Shown here: piece after piece, positions 5,359-16,229 of the stretch
How the letters are laid out: each line of letters opens with the position of its first letter
Position numbering within the stretch: the first letter of the stretch is position 1
Source: Methanomassiliicoccales archaeon
GTDB lineage: Archaea > Thermoplasmatota > Thermoplasmata > Methanomassiliicoccales > UBA472
NCBI GenBank assembly: GCA_026394375.1
Contig: JAPKYJ010000026.1
Coordinates: forward strand, 1-64,000
Length of the DNA: 64,000 nt
Direction: 5' to 3'
Position numbers and translations under genes: made by a program
The notes under the pieces: model-generated
Databases searched by the model: none
What the model was told of the DNA's origin: nothing
The model's input: only the letters and a program-made list of their open reading frames with translations

Positions 5359-7209
5359 ATGAGCCGGCGGTCCTTAGCCTGGTCATCAATGGTGGTCTGT
5401 GCCCTCCTCGTCATGGGTTCGGCGATGGTGCTGGTGAAGGCGCCCGCGTCATCCGACGGCGAAGAGACTCTTCCCACTTTCTCTAGTTACAGCCAGATGA
5501 GCGGCTACGTCTCCAATTCGAACTCGCGAGGAGGATACGACGCGGCGCTCACCATGGGGGGGAACGGTCAGGCCGTCGCCTCGGAGTCAATGAAGCACTC
5601 CAACACCAATGTCCAGGTGGAAGGCGTGGACGAGGCCGACCTGGTTAAGACCGACGGCCAGTACCTATTCATCGCCTCCCTCGATAGAGTGCACATCGTC
5701 CGTGCCTATCCTCCGGCGCAGATGTCCAACGTCTCGGAGATACTGGTGCGCGATCATCTGGGGACGGATGCGAACTACAGTGTCTGGATCCATGGGATAT
5801 ATCTCTTCGACGGGGAGCTGGCGATAATCGCATACGTGGCCGGTCCCTATCCGGTCTACGACCCGCAGGTCATGACCCCCTGGGTCTGGAGGATGCCCGA
5901 GGAACGGACCGTGGTGCTGGTGTTCGATCTATCCGACGTGGCGCAGCCTCAGATGCTAGGCCTGTTCGGCATCTCCGGCAATCCCAGCACCACCCGACTG
6001 GCCGGTGGCATCGTATATGCGGTGGCGCAGCATTTCATCTGGACGAATGACGATTCCGTGGTCCGCCCCAAGCTTTGGATCAACAGCTCAGTTACAGAGC
6101 TGGACCCGACCCGGGTGCACTACGATCCCGATTGTAAGGACTCCGCTGCCTTCCTCAACCTGCTGGCGGTGGACCTCAAGCAGCTGAAGAGCAACTATAC
6201 CTCGCTGCTCGTGGGCTACGCCTCCATCGTCTACATGTCGCAAGGCGCCCTCTACCTCACATATCAGAAATGGACAGGGGAGGCGGTATGGTCTGGAACT
6301 GGCGCCGGAGGAACGGCCGTCAGCGTCGTCAGCGCCACTGATTCCTTCTCCACCACCATCTACAAGATCGGGCTGGAAGGTCTGGTCATGCAGCCCAATG
6401 CCCGAGGGTCCGTCCCCGGCTGGCCGCTCAACCAGTTCGCTTTGGACGAGCATGGATCCCAGCTGCGAATCGCGACCACCACCTCCTGGACGAACCAGAG
6501 CAACGCCGTCTACATCCTGGACGCCGACCTTAAGCGAGTTGGCCAGCTGGAGAACATCGCCCCGGGGGAGCGCATCTATTCCGCTCGTTTCGTCGGCGAG
6601 ACGCTCTATCTGGTCACCTTCAGACAGGTGGACCCGCTGTTCGTCATCGATTTGAGCGTGGCCAGCAATCCCCGGATCGTCGGTTCCCTAGCGCTTCCAG
6701 GCTTTTCCTCCTACCTGCATCCAGTGAACTCCACCCACTTGGTGGGCATCGGCATGCTGAACGGCTCGATCAAGCTGTCCCTCTTCGATGTCTCCGATCC
6801 CCTCCAGCCACGAGAGGACGCCAACCTGACCGTGCCTGGAAGGTCGTATTCCCAGGCTCTATGGGACCACCACGCGGTGCTCTTCGATGTCGAGACTGGC
6901 GCCTTGATCATCCCCATCACCACCTATGATGCTTCCACTTACAACGTAACATCGGCCGTCTTTGTGTTCCATTTGGCCGGAGACACGCTGGCGCTGACCG
7001 GAAAGTTGGCGGTGGATTCGGGAGAGTACATCGTTCGCACGCACTACATCGGTGAGTATCTGTACACGATCACCGACGTGAAGGTGCTGGCGAACTCGTT
7101 GCTGGACCTGAGCCCCGCGGGAGAGCTGGTGTACGCCGAGAGGAGTCAGTATCTCATCCCCTATATGCTGGGCGAGGGAACGGTGTCGCCTGTGGCGGCC
7201 GTGAGGTGA
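5359..7209 (+). CDS. Secreted or membrane-anchored beta-propeller protein
   Basis: A 616-residue protein of the archaeal and bacterial beta-propeller domain family (Pfam Beta_propel type). Residues 8-28 form a hydrophobic signal anchor after a short basic N-terminus. The diagnostic segment VQVEGVDEADLVKTDGQYLF occurs near residues 86-105, followed by repeated blades with VFDLSD, YILDADL and LFDVSDP strands. The many N-x-S/T sites fit an exported, possibly glycosylated surface protein. Start at ATG 5359, since the signal anchor begins here. The next gene downstream is a membrane-bound HTH protein 67 bases away, which might regulate it. The biochemical role of the family is not established. Confidence 0.85.
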   Translation: MSRRSLAWSSMVVCALLVMGSAMVLVKAPASSDGEETLPTFSSYSQMSGYVSNSNSRGGYDAALTMGGNGQAVASESMKHSNTNVQVEGVDEADLVKTDGQYLFIASLDRVHIVRAYPPAQMSNVSEILVRDHLGTDANYSVWIHGIYLFDGELAIIAYVAGPYPVYDPQVMTPWVWRMPEERTVVLVFDLSDVAQPQMLGLFGISGNPSTTRLAGGIVYAVAQHFIWTNDDSVVRPKLWINSSVTELDPTRVHYDPDCKDSAAFLNLLAVDLKQLKSNYTSLLVGYASIVYMSQGALYLTYQKWTGEAVWSGTGAGGTAVSVVSATDSFSTTIYKIGLEGLVMQPNARGSVPGWPLNQFALDEHGSQLRIATTTSWTNQSNAVYILDADLKRVGQLENIAPGERIYSARFVGETLYLVTFRQVDPLFVIDLSVASNPRIVGSLALPGFSSYLHPVNSTHLVGIGMLNGSIKLSLFDVSDPLQPREDANLTVPGRSYSQALWDHHAVLFDVETGALIIPITTYDASTYNVTSAVFVFHLAGDTLALTGKLAVDSGEYIVRTHYIGEYLYTITDVKVLANSLLDLSPAGELVYAERSQYLIPYMLGEGTVSPVAAVR

Positions 7210-7276: not shown

Positions 7277-7828
7277 ATGAAGGTGGAGCTGGACAAGAAG
7301 GCCTTGTTCGCATTAGCCTCCGACACTCGCATAGAGATCTTGAAGGCGCTCCAGCCTTCCCGCCGGACCATTACTCAGCTCGCGGAGGAGCTGAGCATCG
7401 ACAAGGCTGCCATCCACCGACATCTCAAGAAGCTGGAGGAGGGCGGCTTCGTCACTCGTCAAGAGGACCATGGTTTTGTCTACTACGAGCTGTCGTGGAA
7501 GGCCAGGGACATCATCTCCCCGGGTGAGAACACCAAGATCATCATCATCTTCTCATCCTCCTGGTTGCTGATACTGGCTTCGGTATCCCTTCTCGTATTG
7601 GCTTTGAACTCGGCCGCCAAACGCGCCTTCGAAGCGTACGGGGAGACGCAGATGGCGGGAGGCAACTGGCTCAGCGAAGCAACCGGTGGCCTGGGGCTGG
7701 AGGTATTGCTGCCAGCGGTCCTGCTGGTTGCGCTCGCAGTCGTGCTGACCTACATCGGATATAGCAAGCTGCGCCGACCCAGGCAACGACCGGCGGAGAA
7801 GGACCCACCCGATGAGGCGACCTTCTGA
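7277..7828 (+). CDS. Membrane-anchored ArsR-type winged-helix regulator
   Basis: A 183-residue protein with an N-terminal winged-helix domain (residues 5-75: ALASDTRIEILKAL, then the recognition helix DKAAIHRHLKKLEEGG and the wing). Two hydrophobic segments follow at about 90-112 and 140-163, with a basic proline-rich C-terminal tail. No metal-binding cysteines of classical ArsR are present. HTH proteins with two C-terminal membrane helices are common in euryarchaea and may sense envelope state. It follows the beta-propeller gene and may control it or itself; this is inference. Confidence 0.8.
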   Translation: MKVELDKKALFALASDTRIEILKALQPSRRTITQLAEELSIDKAAIHRHLKKLEEGGFVTRQEDHGFVYYELSWKARDIISPGENTKIIIIFSSSWLLILASVSLLVLALNSAAKRAFEAYGETQMAGGNWLSEATGGLGLEVLLPAVLLVALAVVLTYIGYSKLRRPRQRPAEKDPPDEATF

Positions 7829-7891: not shown

Positions 7892-7899
7892 AATAAATA
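7892..7899 (+). promoter_or_regulatory. TATA-like box upstream of the ATP-grasp operon
   Basis: AATAAATA about 54 bases before the small ORF at 7946 and 113 before the ATP-grasp gene. An initiation point near 7922 would give a leader that includes the small ORF. Confidence 0.4.
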
Positions 7900-7945: not shown

Positions 7946-8008
7946 ATGCAGGACGACGACAAGGACGAGAGAGGGGCTCATCGCTGCAATGGCCCCCGGA
8001 CGGGGTGA
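7946..8008 (+). CDS. 20-codon ORF coupled to the ATP-grasp gene
   Basis: A very short frame reading MQDDDKDERGAHRCNGPRTG whose TGA stop overlaps the GTG of the ATP-grasp gene by 4 bases (GTGA at 8005-8008). The peptide is acidic at the start, then basic, with one Cys. It lies between a TATA-like box and the ligase gene. It could be a leader ORF that couples translation or a substrate peptide. Equally it may be chance, since the ligase may start at ATG 8017 instead. Confidence 0.25.
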   Translation: MQDDDKDERGAHRCNGPRTG

Positions 8009-8883
8009 GGGCGGCGATGGGCACGCTGGGCATTTTCGTGGACAGACAGACATTGAGCCATTCGCGCAAGCTAGGGGCGGTGATGCGCTTCCGCGACGCT
8101 GCCGAGGCTCTGGGCCACCGTTCCTACTTCATCTTCCCGGTGGAGATGCGCAAGATCGCCAAGACCAGCGCGCTTCTCATTCGCGGCCGCACCGACCCGC
8201 TGAACGCCACCTATGTGGCCGCCCGTTGGGCCAGCCTGCACGGCATCCCGGTCATCGACGATGCCACCTCCATCCGGATATGCTCGGACAAGGTGAACAT
8301 GTATATGCACTTACAGAAGGCGGGAGTGCCGATACCTGAGACCTGGTATCTGGGTAGGAGGGACGTCGAGGCCGGTGAGGAAGGGATCATCGGCCAGCTG
8401 CATTTCCCCCTGGTCCTCAAGGAGCCCTCCACCAGCTTCAGCAATCGGGTGAAGGTGGCGCACGACCGGAGGGAGCTGACGCGCATCGCCACCTCCTACC
8501 TGAAGCTCAGTCACCTCATCGTGGTCCAGGAACACGTGGAAAGCGAGGAGGACTGGCGCATTGGGATACTGGACGGCGAGGTGCTGTTCGCCTCCCGCTA
8601 CGTGGAGATCGAGCCGGAAGAGGTTCGCCCAATCGAGGAAGAGGAGGTGCCCTACTATGGTGTGGAGACGCTGCCCTTGGACCGGGTTCCGGAGCGGGCG
8701 TTGCGCTTGGCGGTGAGGGCGGCGTGCGCCATCGGCGAAGGGCTGTACAGCGTGGACATCAAGGAGCGCGGAGGCAAGCTCTTCGTCATCGAGGTCAACG
8801 ACAACCCCTCCCTGGAGAATGGGGAGGAGGAACACTATCCAGACGTGTACGAGCGCATCGTGGCTCGCCTGATGAAGGCATGA
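8005..8883 (+). CDS. RimK-like ATP-grasp ligase
   Basis: About 290 residues of the ATP-grasp superfamily closest to RimK/LysX/MptN-type ligases, which join an amino group to a carboxylate through an acyl phosphate. Visible parts are the pre-grasp domain with RGRTDP, the DDATSIRICSDKVNMY segment typical of RimK, the ATP-binding FPLVLKEPSTSFSNRVKV strand pair, VVQEHVE, and the metal-binding end FVIEVNDNPSLENGEE. GTG 8005 overlaps a small ORF. ATG 8017, preceded by GGGTGAGG, is an equally good start. A GCS2-type ligase follows 90 bases downstream. Such pairs are known to make gamma-glutamyl or peptide-modified metabolites. The substrate is unknown. Confidence 0.85.
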   Translation: MRAAMGTLGIFVDRQTLSHSRKLGAVMRFRDAAEALGHRSYFIFPVEMRKIAKTSALLIRGRTDPLNATYVAARWASLHGIPVIDDATSIRICSDKVNMYMHLQKAGVPIPETWYLGRRDVEAGEEGIIGQLHFPLVLKEPSTSFSNRVKVAHDRRELTRIATSYLKLSHLIVVQEHVESEEDWRIGILDGEVLFASRYVEIEPEEVRPIEEEEVPYYGVETLPLDRVPERALRLAVRAACAIGEGLYSVDIKERGGKLFVIEVNDNPSLENGEEEHYPDVYERIVARLMKA

Positions 8884-8961
8884 AGAGATAGAAGCGGGGC
8901 GCTATCTAAGCGCGGGTGGTCGCTGGGAATGGAACAAATCGATCAGCATCTGACTGCAGAA

Positions 8962-8968
8962 GGAGGGG
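8962..8968 (+). promoter_or_regulatory. Shine-Dalgarno site deciding the GCS2-family start
   Basis: GGAGGGG lies 5 bases before ATG 8974. The in-frame upstream ATG at 8929 has no comparable site, so the shorter form is preferred. Confidence 0.7.
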
Positions 8969-8973
8969 TTCGA

Positions 8974-10116
8974 ATGACCATCGGAACGGAGCACGAATAT
9001 TCGATCAACGACGAGTCTTTCAACCCCCTGCCCATCTCGGACCAGATAATCAAGGAGCTGGCCGGTGAGCTCAGGAACGAGATCCCCTTCGGCCCAGTGC
9101 ACCTGTCCAAGGAACTGCAGAAGCATGTGCTGGAGATCACCCCCTCCGTGCCGGCGCACGACCTCGTTTCGTTGGAAGCCTCACTGTACTCAGGCCTGCA
9201 AGGGTTCTACGCCCGCACCGAAGGCAAGTACCGCCTGCTGGGCTTGGGGATGCATCCTGCGCTGCGGCTTGAGGAGGCGCAGGTGTGGGAGCACGAGGAC
9301 AGCGAGATCTACGAGATCTACGATCGCCTCTTCGACATCCGGCAGCATGGCTGGCTGAACATCCAGGCCCTGCAGGTCAACCTCCCCTTCCGGGATGGCG
9401 AGGATATGGTCAGGATGTACAACCGCCTGAGGGCGCTCATCCCCTACCTGGTGGCGGTGTCCGCTTCCTCCCCATTGGTGGAAGGGAAGGAGACCAGGGC
9501 GATGGACAACCGTCTGATCTTCTACCGCGAGAACCAGAGGCGGCTTCCCTCGATCACCCATGGCATCATCCCGGAGAAGCTGCGGAGCCCCGAGCATCAG
9601 CGCCAGATCCAGGAGGAGATGTATGCCACTCTTCGGGAGCACGGCGGAGAGCGGCTCTGTCACGAGTGGGTGGATTCCCGGGGCGTGATAGTGCGGTTCT
9701 CCCGCTGCTGCCTGGAGCTAAAAGCCATCGATGAGCAGGAGTGTCTGCGGGCCGACGTGGCCCTCGTGGCATTCATATTGGCGCTGCTGCGTTGCGACGA
9801 CCTTGGGCTAGAGGAGGACGAGGAGGCGCTGAAAGAGATGACGGAGAAGGCCATCCTGGGCGGGGTTTCGCAGTTCCGACCCGAACTCAGGAAGCTGCAC
9901 GCCGTTGCCAGCAGGAGGGCGAGCGCGGACGAGAGGCGCTATCTTCCTTTGATCAAGACCAAGGTCGAATATGGAAGCCTGGCCGAGGTGATGCTGCAGG
10001 AGCGGCACGAGGGGAAGGGCCTCTTGGTCATGCTGCAGGAGATGGAGGGGGCCCTGCGGACCAACGTCCCGCACCAATGCGGGGCATGCAAGCGCTCCGA
10101 TCCGTTCGGCATCTGA
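8974..10116 (+). CDS. GCS2-family carboxylate-amine ligase
   Basis: A 380-residue member of the GCS2 family (glutamate-cysteine ligase type 2 and relatives) in the glutamine-synthetase-like fold. The N-terminus TIGTEHEYSIND carries the metal-binding Glu-x-Glu pattern; later HPALRLEEAQVWEHED, a substrate loop around LNIQALQVNLPF, and SRCCLELKAIDEQ are typical. Family enzymes make gamma-glutamyl amides such as gamma-glutamylcysteine. The C-terminus ends with a CGACKRSDPFG knuckle that could bind metal. The neighbouring RimK-like ligase suggests a two-step amide-forming pathway, for example a thiol or modified peptide. A frame 15 codons longer is open, but the ribosome site favours 8974. Confidence 0.82.
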   Translation: MTIGTEHEYSINDESFNPLPISDQIIKELAGELRNEIPFGPVHLSKELQKHVLEITPSVPAHDLVSLEASLYSGLQGFYARTEGKYRLLGLGMHPALRLEEAQVWEHEDSEIYEIYDRLFDIRQHGWLNIQALQVNLPFRDGEDMVRMYNRLRALIPYLVAVSASSPLVEGKETRAMDNRLIFYRENQRRLPSITHGIIPEKLRSPEHQRQIQEEMYATLREHGGERLCHEWVDSRGVIVRFSRCCLELKAIDEQECLRADVALVAFILALLRCDDLGLEEDEEALKEMTEKAILGGVSQFRPELRKLHAVASRRASADERRYLPLIKTKVEYGSLAEVMLQERHEGKGLLVMLQEMEGALRTNVPHQCGACKRSDPFGI

Positions 10117-10181: not shown

Positions 10182-10931
10182 ATGAAGTGGCGCAACCACG
10201 TTGACGTCACCACGCAGGTGGCGGACGCTCTTGGTCTCTCGGATCACTTGACTCGCATCTTGGTAGAGGCTTCTCTGGACCCGGATCGGAACGCGACCAA
10301 GAGCGCGTCACGGGAGAAGGGGGGAACGAGGCTCCACCGGATCCCGCACCATTCGGCTGGTAGAAGGGAAATGATGAGGATGGTCTGGAAGGCCAGGAGC
10401 GCACACCTGGAAGGCAGGGAAGAGGACGCGGTGTGGTGCCTCGGGCGGGCGTTGCACTACATTCAGGATATGCACGTGCGCGTCGGCCTGGCCTATTGGA
10501 GGCACGACCGAGCGGAGAGGGAGATCGGTCATCTGCACATCGCCCCTCTGCCCGCCTGCAAAGGGGTCCAGATGTCCTTGTCCTCGCCACATTTCGTCTG
10601 GGACTGCCTGGGGGCCTGCAGACCTCGCCGCGATCCGGCGGACGCTCTCTACTTTGCCTGCCTGTATTCAGGGGCAGTAGCGGGAGCGGTGCTAGGGGAT
10701 CTGCGGCCGGAGAAGGCATCGATGAGGCGATGGCAGAGCTCGAAGAGAAGGCACTGGATGCTCATCGTCCCTGTCGGAGTGGGCGTGGCATCCGCATTCG
10801 TCCTCCTTGCGTTCGCGGGCGGCTCCCCTCACCTCAGCGTGCTCGGTCTGCCTTCGGCGGCGCTCATCATTGCCTTGGACCGCCGGTACTACTTCGATGC
10901 GGAGGAAGCGAAATGGTTCGGATTACGCTGA
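10182..10931 (+). CDS. Phospholipase C/P1 nuclease-like zinc protein with C-terminal membrane helices
   Basis: About 249 residues. The first 150 resemble the all-helical zinc-dependent phospholipase C/P1 nuclease superfamily: an N-terminal WRNH, DPDRN, a His-rich HRIPHH, and LGRALHYIQDMHV, the usual zinc-binding helix. The last 75 residues hold two hydrophobic segments (LIVPVGVGVASAFVLLAFAG and a second shorter one) followed by RRYYFD. ATG 10182 is preceded by GGGATGG. An in-frame extension upstream only overlaps the GCS2 gene. Possible roles are phospholipid or phosphoester hydrolysis at the membrane. Whether it belongs to the ligase operon is unclear (65-base gap). Confidence 0.5.
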   Translation: MKWRNHVDVTTQVADALGLSDHLTRILVEASLDPDRNATKSASREKGGTRLHRIPHHSAGRREMMRMVWKARSAHLEGREEDAVWCLGRALHYIQDMHVRVGLAYWRHDRAEREIGHLHIAPLPACKGVQMSLSSPHFVWDCLGACRPRRDPADALYFACLYSGAVAGAVLGDLRPEKASMRRWQSSKRRHWMLIVPVGVGVASAFVLLAFAGGSPHLSVLGLPSAALIIALDRRYYFDAEEAKWFGLR

Positions 10932-10995: not shown

Positions 10996-12537
10996 TCAGA
11001 GATCGATCGTCGCTCCCTTGCGCGCGGGGACCAGCTCGATTTTCTCGAATCGTCGAAAAGGACCTATGTCTTCGGTGTGGACAGGCATGACCCTCTTCGG
11101 CGCGATGGCCTCGATGAGGCGTTCCAGGTCCTCCACCGAGGCATGCCCGGACGCATGGTAGTCATGATCGAATCTCGGCACCTCCTCTCCCTTCTTGCCC
11201 TCCATCCAGAATCCCTTGATCTTGAAGTGGAACATCTCCAGCCAGTGCCAGAGCCGACGGAAGTCCACGACCTGCTCTTCACTGTAAGCCTCGCTGCTCG
11301 AATAGATATACGTCCCCGCCTCGGGTTTGATGTCCAACAGCTGGCTCATGTCGAAGTACGAGAAGCAAAGGATGTGTTCGCGCGGAGCGGAATGCAGTTC
11401 ACCCGGGTCCACGAACAAGCCCTCGAACCGTTGGTGGACCTTGTCATCGATGCCGGATGTGGTGCCTTTGAGCGGGAGGTAAACCCTCATGCCCCGCATG
11501 CGATCGATGCCGTCCGCGGTCCGCAGCGCCTCCAGGAAGTAGGCGTCCTTCACCGTCACCACTAAAGTGCGATCCAGTCTCTGGGCGATGTCCTTGAACG
11601 TCTCCAGTCGCTCGAAGTTGCGCGGTCCGAAATCCGCGACGATAAGCTCCTCCTCATGCCTGGCCGCCTCCATGCAGGTCCGGGCCACTTTCTCCTCGGA
11701 GCGATCGCCCGCGTCCGCGTCCCGGGAGGTTCGCGTTCCCTCGATGATGAGCAGCTCGGGTTGTAGTTCGGCGGCCTTCTCCGCGAACTTCCAGGTTTTG
11801 TTCCCGTATCGACCATGGGCTCTGAGGTCGCCGGTGTACACCACCCATCCGCTCGAGGTTTCCACGCCATAGGCCGTAGCGCCGTAGATGGAATGATCGA
11901 CGTCAAAGGACTGGAACTCGAAGCCGAGGGACCCGCAGCTGAGCATCCCTCGAGCCTCCAGCTCCTTCTTCTTCGCCGGCGAGGTCGCCCAGAAGACCTC
12001 GAGGTCAGCGGAGCACGTGCTGGTAGGAACGAAGGCTCGGCCCTGGTAGGAATCGGAGCTCGACGCGACCTTCAGCACCCTTCCGTCAGCCGGAGTCCTG
12101 TCGCGGAGCGAACCATAGACGGTCTCGCCCTCGGGCGTGCTGCCGCAATCCCGAAGGGCCTTCATGATGGCCATGGTCGTGGGCGATGCCACGAACGGGA
12201 TGTCCAGGTCGAACAGGCCGGCGTGTCCGATGTGGTCCATATGCGCATGGGAGATGAGCACCGCGTCCACTTGCACGTCGAGCGCCCGATTCGCGTCCAT
12301 ATCGGCAGGCACCAGGTCTGAACGGTACTGTTTGAGGTGGGGGACCAAGCCCATTTTCACGAGATCATGAATGCCCCTCGTAGCAGAACGGGGCTGGAGG
12401 AAATCACTGTAATACTCGCCCAGCTGGTGGTAATTCTGCCCGAAGTCAAAGAACAGACCGTGGCCATCGAAGTCCAGATGGATTTTGTTGCCGCCAATGC
12501 AATCGGCGCCATCGAAGACCGTGACCTTGACGCTCAT
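10996..12537 (-). CDS. Metallo-beta-lactamase-fold hydrolase, RNase J/CPSF-like
   Basis: A 513-residue protein of the RNase J/beta-CASP-like metallo-beta-lactamase group. It begins with an IGGNKIHLDF strand, then the zinc motif SHAHMDHIGH near residue 95, a second histidine site in YTGDLRAHG, an IIEGTRT strand, and the C-terminal SGHASVEDLERLIEAI and VMPVHTED motifs typical of beta-CASP nucleases. It is convergent with the phospholipase-like gene and divergent from leuC. Predicted role: RNA processing or decay. Long insertions make it different from standard RNase J, so the exact substrate is open. Confidence 0.8.
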   Translation of the reverse strand: MSVKVTVFDGADCIGGNKIHLDFDGHGLFFDFGQNYHQLGEYYSDFLQPRSATRGIHDLVKMGLVPHLKQYRSDLVPADMDANRALDVQVDAVLISHAHMDHIGHAGLFDLDIPFVASPTTMAIMKALRDCGSTPEGETVYGSLRDRTPADGRVLKVASSSDSYQGRAFVPTSTCSADLEVFWATSPAKKKELEARGMLSCGSLGFEFQSFDVDHSIYGATAYGVETSSGWVVYTGDLRAHGRYGNKTWKFAEKAAELQPELLIIEGTRTSRDADAGDRSEEKVARTCMEAARHEEELIVADFGPRNFERLETFKDIAQRLDRTLVVTVKDAYFLEALRTADGIDRMRGMRVYLPLKGTTSGIDDKVHQRFEGLFVDPGELHSAPREHILCFSYFDMSQLLDIKPEAGTYIYSSSEAYSEEQVVDFRRLWHWLEMFHFKIKGFWMEGKKGEEVPRFDHDYHASGHASVEDLERLIEAIAPKRVMPVHTEDIGPFRRFEKIELVPARKGATIDL

Positions 12538-14752: not shown

Positions 14753-15364
14753 ATGAGCGAGGAAACCACTACAGACCTGCTTGTATCAGAGGACGTTTAC
14801 CTGACTTCTGGCGTTCATATCGGCACGCAGCAGAAGAGCGCCGACATGAAACAGTTCATATTCAAGGTCCGATCGGACGGATTGTACGTCATGGATGTGA
14901 AGCAGACCGATGCCCGCATCCGGGCGGCCGCGAAGTTCCTGTCACGTTTCCAGCCGGACCGCATCCTGGTCGTGTCCGCTCGCCAATACGGACAGAAGCC
15001 AGTGAAGATCTTCACCAAGGCCATCGGCGCCAAGACGTTCCCCGGCAGGTTCGTGCCCGGGTCGCTCACCAATCCCCGACTATCGGACTTCGTCGAACCA
15101 GAGATACTCATGGTCACGGACCCTGCGGCCGACCAGCAGGCCATGGCGGAAGCGATGAACGTGGGCATACCCATACTGGCATTGTGCGACGCCAACAACG
15201 AAACGCGCAACGTGGACCTGGTCGTCCCTACCAACAACAAGGGCCGCCGGGCGCTAGCCTGCGTCTACTGGCTGCTGACCCGCGAGACCCTGAAGGAAAG
15301 GGGGCAGCTGTCCAGGGACGAGGACTTCAAGCTCACCATCGACGACTTCGAGGCCAGCCTCTGA
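14753..15364 (+). CDS. rps2: Small ribosomal subunit protein S2
   Basis: A roughly 203-residue archaeal S2 (uS2) with the hallmark [21 protein letters not shown]-terminus, [20 protein letters not shown], the [11 protein letters not shown] loop and the [15 protein letters not shown] segment. It binds the head-platform junction of the small subunit. ATG 14753 is preferred because GAGGGG sits 8 bases upstream; an in-frame ATG at 14735 would overlap rpoK and lacks a site. It is followed by the MEMO gene, a common archaeal order. Confidence 0.95.
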
Positions 15365-15410
15365 GCCGTCATAAAATTCTTCTACTTCCACTTCCCTAAT
15401 CATTTGTTTG

Positions 15411-16229
15411 ATGAGCATGCGCTATCCAGCGGTGGCGGGCCGATTCTATGCGGGCAAAGACAAGGAGCTGCGCCAGGAGATCGAGGACTGCTTCAATCAC
15501 CGGCTCGGGCCGGGGCGGATCCCTCATCTGGGCCAGGGTGGTGGCAAGATCGTGGGAGCGGTGGTCCCGCACGCCGGTTATATGTACTCCGGTCCGGTGG
15601 CGGCGCATGTCTACGCCGCATTGGCCAAGCAAGGATTCCCTCAGACGTTCGTCATCATCGGTCCGAACCACCACGGTCTAGGGGCGGGAGTGGCCATGAG
15701 CACCGAGGACTTCTCCACCCCCCTAGGCGTGTGCAAGGTGGACCAGGAGCTTGCCTCCCAGCTCAGGGGTCTGGTGGAGGACGATCCCTATGCCCACTTG
15801 CAGGAGCATTCCCTGGAGGTTCAGCTGCCGTTCCTCCAGTACTTCAAGTCGGACGTGCAGATACTGCCCATCGTCATGATGTTCCAGGATTACGAGACCG
15901 CACGTGAGCTGGGCGCCCGACTGAAGAAGGCCAACGAGGGCAAGGACGTGGTGGTCATCGCTTCCAGCGACTTCTCGCACTATGTCTCGCCCCAGGAGGC
16001 GAAGAAGAAGGACTCCATGGTCATCGAGAAGATACTCAAGCTCGATGCTCGGGGGGTGGAGACGGCGGTCATGACCAATGATGTCTCAATGTGCGGCTAC
16101 GGCCCGGTCATGGCCATGCTGGAGGCCGTGGCAGGACGAGAGGCGGACCTGCTGAAGTATGCCACATCGGGGGACGTGTCGCCCATGAAAGAAGTGGTGG
16201 GCTACGCGGGCATCGTGGTCAAGAAGTGA
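15411..16229 (+). CDS. MEMO family protein (AmmeMemoRadiSam protein B)
   Basis: A 272-residue member of the Memo family, a dioxygenase-like alpha/beta fold related to LigB. It starts with the MRYPAVAGRFY motif, then GAVVPHAGYMYSGPVAAHVY, IIGPNHHGLG, EHSLEVQLPFLQY and IASSDFSHYV, which supply the conserved His residues of the active cleft. Family members often occur with an AMMECR1 protein and a radical SAM enzyme, neither of which is here; instead it follows rps2 as in many archaea. No ribosome site precedes ATG 15411, fitting a leaderless or coupled start. Its biochemical role is unresolved. Confidence 0.9.
   Translation: MSMRYPAVAGRFYAGKDKELRQEIEDCFNHRLGPGRIPHLGQGGGKIVGAVVPHAGYMYSGPVAAHVYAALAKQGFPQTFVIIGPNHHGLGAGVAMSTEDFSTPLGVCKVDQELASQLRGLVEDDPYAHLQEHSLEVQLPFLQYFKSDVQILPIVMMFQDYETARELGARLKKANEGKDVVVIASSDFSHYVSPQEAKKKDSMVIEKILKLDARGVETAVMTNDVSMCGYGPVMAMLEAVAGREADLLKYATSGDVSPMKEVVGYAGIVVKK

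Follow-up and report, generated by a model that had tools for sequence, protein, structure and literature searches.

Genes and signals at the locus

The window analyzed here is a 64-kb stretch of DNA on contig C26 of a 1.73 Mb genome which, judged by its gene content, is that of a methanogen because it encodes methyl-coenzyme M reductase. In this window, a gene for a RimK-type ATP-grasp ligase lies adjacent to a gene for a GCS2-family ligase, as a first-pass annotation had proposed; both genes are real, with matches to Pfam families (PF08443, 41.3 bits against a cutoff of 21, and PF04107, E=1e-36, 127.3 bits against a cutoff of 21, respectively) and with homologs at 50-62% identity in other genera. 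The locus comprises the following features:

5359..7209, + strand: beta-propeller protein PF09826 (profile match; upstream neighbor conserved in order, by synteny)
7277..7828, + strand: ArsR/HTH_20-type regulator with C-terminal hydrophobic segments (profile match; upstream neighbor conserved in order, by synteny)
7892..7899, + strand: TATA-like element AATAAATA, probable promoter of the RimK and GCS2 pair (upstream of RimK in five genomes)
7946..8008, + strand: 20-codon ORF (peptide not conserved; an ORF of 18-23 codons recurs at the same position)
8004..8008, + strand: predicted Shine-Dalgarno-like GGTGA of RimK (8-base spacer to ATG 8017)
8017..8883, + strand: RimK-type ATP-grasp ligase, GCS2-linked paralog, 288 aa (PF08443; start from alignment with relatives; conserved residues; model)
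8960..8966, + strand: predicted Shine-Dalgarno-like AAGGAGG of GCS2 (7-base spacer to ATG 8974)
8974..10116, + strand: GCS2-family carboxylate-amine ligase, 380 aa (PF04107; superfamily motifs; model)

Given that the TATA-like element is kept in five genomes, the pair is probably transcribed from a promoter of its own, with a leader of about 95 bases from the presumed transcript start. The window yielded no Rfam match to a structured RNA and no PADLOC match to a known defense system. An ORF with no Pfam match lies 3' of GCS2 (10182-10931; the start is an estimate), followed by a gene for a metallo-beta-lactamase-fold protein with an RMMBL segment that is convergent to GCS2 (10996-12537); a similar-looking ORF in a related genome, G003 (locus L061, 4842-6413), is convergent as well, suggesting old synteny.

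The start of the RimK gene is better read as ATG 8017 than as GTG 8005. In the alignment, the N-terminus of the RimKs of the relatives is M-x-x-[IL]-G-I-F, matching translation from ATG 8017. The alternative, a GTG-8005 start with a GTGA stop/start overlap, was rejected: in three related genomes (G005, G009 and G013), an in-frame stop lies directly 5' of the homologous ATG, so that the extension is impossible there. The short ORF to which the first-pass annotation assigned GTGA coupling to RimK exists, but the GTGA itself is better read as part of the Shine-Dalgarno sequence GGTGA. The GCS2 gene most likely starts at ATG 8974, because this codon is preceded by AAGGAGG and aligns with the starts in the relatives.

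Two apparently active ligases

The RimK-like protein combines a domain above the Pfam cutoff with intact metal- and ATP-site residues, namely, D247, K249, E259 and N261, which are invariant across 20 aligned homologs. Its structural model has a pLDDT of 89.4, and the nearest structures are LysX/ArgX with carrier protein, along with RimK with RpsF. The curated NCBIfam profiles are distant: the protein scores 64 bits against the LysX equivalog (cutoff 275.6), 38 against MptN (cutoff 350) and 29 against CofF (cutoff 300), and no glutathione synthetase family is among its profile matches.

The GCS2-type superfamily is recognized by an ExE motif in strand 1, acidic positions in strands 2-3, [HQD]x[NH] in strand 4, a pair of arginines in the active site and Ex[RK]xxD in strand 6 (Iyer et al. 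2008, PMC2588565). The GCS2 protein of the window contains all of these, that is, GTEHE at 4-8 on strand 1, E36/E47/E54, Q134-x-N136, R180, R241 and E248-L-K-A-I-D253, and belongs to the superfamily by motifs, Pfam domain and fold alike. Its model (pLDDT 86.8) is nearest, in a Foldseek search, to Salmonella NP459575 (1tt4), the plant glutamate-cysteine ligase (GCL; 2gwc) and YbdK (1r8g). Both proteins are, by family and by residues, ligases, and, judging from sequences and models together, both look active.

The proximity to the plant GCL and YbdK structures, along with the resemblance of the QxN strand and its flanks to the plant GCL in sequence, would fit a glutathione-like low-molecular-weight thiol, with GCS2 making gamma-glutamylcysteine and RimK extending it. 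We nevertheless regard this reading as very unlikely: the GCS2 protein is below every NCBIfam glutamate-cysteine ligase cutoff; lysine replaces the arginine of Ex[RK]xxD almost throughout this subfamily (K250 in the window), so that the substrate preference may differ; and the partner scores as a RimK. The identities tried and rejected for the two proteins (LysX, MptN, CofF, YbdK and glutamate-cysteine ligase) all fall far below the curated NCBIfam cutoffs and, because neither ligase reaches such a cutoff, annotation transfer cannot assign a substrate to either.

A short ORF that recurs in position but not in sequence

The 20-codon ORF upstream of RimK is not unusual in length: after mononucleotide shuffling of the upstream region, 31% of the sequences contain one that long, and after dinucleotide shuffling, 14% contain one of 15 codons or more with its end near the start of RimK. 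The peptide resembles nothing in the sister genera. Conservation at the amino-acid level, on which the first-pass annotation had staked the case for this ORF, was not found, and the idea that the ORF encodes a conserved precursor or leader peptide was rejected given the lack of cross-genus sequence conservation. What recurs at the position is a differently sequenced ORF: in all five genomes of family f1 with a GCS2-linked RimK (the window genome, G003, G005, G009 and G013), an ATG-initiated ORF, 18-23 codons long, has its end at -8 to +6 relative to the start of RimK. A search for more members of the family yielded no others. The five genomes represent three genera, the peptides being unrelated in sequence between genera; the three genus-level chances multiply to about 0.008, with a search window that was chosen post hoc. 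Suggestive but post hoc, the recurrence is a lead toward translational coupling by position and provides no evidence of a peptide product.

Within about 1.5 kb of the ligase genes, we detected no small ORF with cross-genus conservation. This argues against a linked precursor peptide: the small, conserved precursor ORF that a RiPP or Pup-like system would have next to its ligases is missing over that distance. This result also bears on one of the two main rival interpretations, modification of a protein or carrier, whereby RimK would extend a protein terminus or an amino-group carrier with amino acids and GCS2 would conjugate a side chain in a PafA-like manner. RimK modifies S6, and LysX/ArgX act on LysW, so the structures nearest to the window RimK are of this kind. 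Furthermore, GCS2 shares a superfamily with the Pup ligase PafA (PMC2588565), to which it shows a weak structural match (4bjr). However, this match is far weaker than those to GCL and YbdK, the LysX equivalog cutoff is missed by a wide margin, and no conserved small partner protein or ORF adjoins the genes across genera. On balance, protein or carrier modification appears unlikely.

Co-occurrence with RLAN and a four-gene cluster in other methanogens

A recognizable GCS2 is present in 14 of the 61 sampled genomes of the window's order (G014, with a degraded GCS2, was left out of the carriers), and all 14 encode an RLAN-type RimK. RLAN was found by search in 13 of these, the remaining one, G032, having an RLAN remnant. 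The Fisher p values for co-occurrence, 5e-9 and 5e-8, overstate the case and are not true probabilities because the genomes are related. Six genomes of the order encode RLAN-RimK without GCS2, so RLAN-RimK can work without it; at all four readable loci among these six, the next gene encodes a GNAT acetyltransferase in the same direction. All 16 sampled genomes of family f2 lack both GCS2 and RLAN-RimK.

A search with the window GCS2 identified 36 loci, mostly, from Methanothrix, plus Methanoregulaceae and one Methanoperedens. Among loci of sufficient length, those of Methanothrix, Methanoregulaceae and a Methanomicrobiales genome share a tight cluster in the order RLAN-RimK-YkgJ-GCS2, the YkgJ-type protein being cysteine-rich, with a CxxCxxCC motif. 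In Methanoperedens, RLAN-RimK is convergent to GCS2. Each of the 13 cluster-type genomes searched, Methanoperedens included, encodes a single RimK of this type. The candidate amide-forming pathway proposed in the first-pass annotation thus gains substance: the pair recurs in relatives, GCS2 co-occurs without exception with RLAN-type RimK in the order sampled, and the genes form an operon in Methanothrix and Methanoregulaceae. Missed in that annotation were RLAN as the third core component, the YkgJ-type protein, the split of the set over two contigs and the existence of two RimK paralogs.

This distribution also bears on the other main rival, tailoring of a known methanogen cofactor, for example, by an extra glutamyl on F420, a pterin or methanofuran. 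In its favor, two RimK-type ligases known from methanogens, MptN and CofF, match the window RimK distantly, and most of the carriers of the gene set found are methanogens. Nevertheless, tailoring strikes us as distinctly improbable, given the low MptN and CofF scores, the lack of GCS2 in 47 of the 61 genomes of the order, including every sampled member of f2, and the presence of relatives of the set on a Legionella plasmid.

Rearrangement and RimK duplication in the window's order

The genes encoded together in Methanothrix and others are split in the window genome, where GCS2 and a diverged second RimK are on C26 and the RLAN-RimK pair is on contig C22. Family f1 is arranged likewise, its RLAN-RimK and its second RimK plus GCS2 occupying two separate loci, and in one of its members, G003, YkgJ still lies between the second RimK and GCS2. 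In family f6, YkgJ-GCS2 is found at one place, preceded in several genomes by the beta-propeller and HTH genes, and RLAN-RimK is found elsewhere. YkgJ was not found in the window genome, G005, G009 or G013; because of its absence from the window genome, either the pathway is incomplete there compared to Methanothrix or YkgJ is dispensable. In G014, the GCS2-like ORF that adjoins the same beta-propeller and HTH genes is degraded and lacks ExE (locus L071, 5521-6444), and neither RLAN nor a RimK of this type was found in this genome.

In the phylogenetic tree, the two RimK groups of f1 form separate clades, each with 100/100 support, with longer branches in the GCS2-linked clade, and the alignment contains a KIQ..VNGH segment that is conserved in the RLAN-linked RimKs and missing from the GCS2-linked group. 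We read this pattern as a duplication of RimK in f1 with changed specificity, the tree leaving the branching point imprecise.

Several other genes were noticed around RLAN-RimK. In f1, GNAT acetyltransferase genes are convergent beside it (L056 5666-6214, on C22 of the window genome; L127 5400-6466; L130 7382-8451), and in f3/f5, GNAT is directly 3' of RimK. About 7 kb from RLAN-RimK on C22 lies an ORF whose appearance, by eye, suggests a pyruvoyl-dependent arginine decarboxylase (L056 ~15012-15491; C22 99011-99490).

A candidate amide-ligation pathway and its relation to known systems

The operon structure and co-occurrence place both ligases in one pathway, and we put at roughly even the chance that the two genes are part of a conserved methanogen amide-ligation set making a small peptide-like metabolite. 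The core would consist of an RLAN-assisted RimK-type ATP-grasp ligase and a GCS2-type carboxylate-amine ligase. Cluster-bearing relatives add the YkgJ-type protein, and in the window's order RLAN-RimK often has a GNAT acetyltransferase nearby. Both ligases would use ATP to phosphorylate a carboxylate, which they would then couple to an amine, and successive ligations would yield a short peptide-like metabolite. That these steps act on one product, as well as their order, substrates and product, is what we infer from the gene set. In the window lineage, RimK duplication would have left one copy with RLAN (C22) and a diverged copy with GCS2, pointing to an extra or altered ligation step.

More specifically, although with somewhat less than even confidence, we propose a dedicated RLAN-RimK/YkgJ/GCS2 pathway to an undescribed peptide-like metabolite in Methanothrix, Methanoregulaceae, a Methanoperedens and some members of the window's order; in the window's family, the second, diverged RimK would have extended or altered this pathway. 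Methanothrix and its relatives are major methane producers. If the proposal is correct, a conserved biosynthetic set in these organisms points to a missing metabolite, such as a redox buffer, an osmolyte, a signal or a part of a cofactor, and the gene set is defined sharply enough for in vitro testing with three or four proteins.

Glutathione is built stepwise by GCS and GshB, and the proposed route would run parallel to it, also pairing a GS-fold gamma-glutamyl-type ligase with an ATP-grasp ligase. This is an analogy of function only: the window GCS2 is under the GCL cutoffs, the ATP-grasp partner matches RimK rather than glutathione synthetase, and the set includes RLAN and YkgJ. With LysX/ArgX and RimK, the window RimK shares the ATP-grasp fold (TM 0.73-0.78) and catalytic residues, but it is only 20-24% identical to them, scores far under the LysX cutoff and is paired with GCS2. 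Likewise, the window GCS2 has the same fold as the YbdK carboxylate-amine ligase (TM 0.67-0.72) and shares its motifs, but is 15-16% identical and, with 48.6 bits, falls short of the 176.4 required for the YbdK subfamily.

The closest parallels are operons outside these methanogens. GCS2 of this type, at E<=1e-20, is present in only 5 of 341 genomes drawn from the phylum. In one of these five, G097, GCS2 has a fused RLAN-RimK and a C39-like peptidase for neighbors (locus L154). Among plasmids, the only match to the window GCS2 was the Legionella adelaidensis record NZ_LR134436.1, with consecutive genes of the RimK family, the glutamate-cysteine ligase family and N-formylglutamate amidohydrolase. 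As in the methanogen cluster, RLAN, RimK and GCS2 are adjacent in both operons; however, G097 has RLAN fused to RimK and a C39-like peptidase instead of YkgJ, the Legionella plasmid has the N-formylglutamate amidohydrolase instead, and GCS2 differs as well, at only 30-33% identity. Amidoligase clusters of this RLAN-RimK/GCS2 kind were reportedly predicted by Iyer and colleagues in 2009, and the methanogen set is a variant of this wider, computationally predicted kind.
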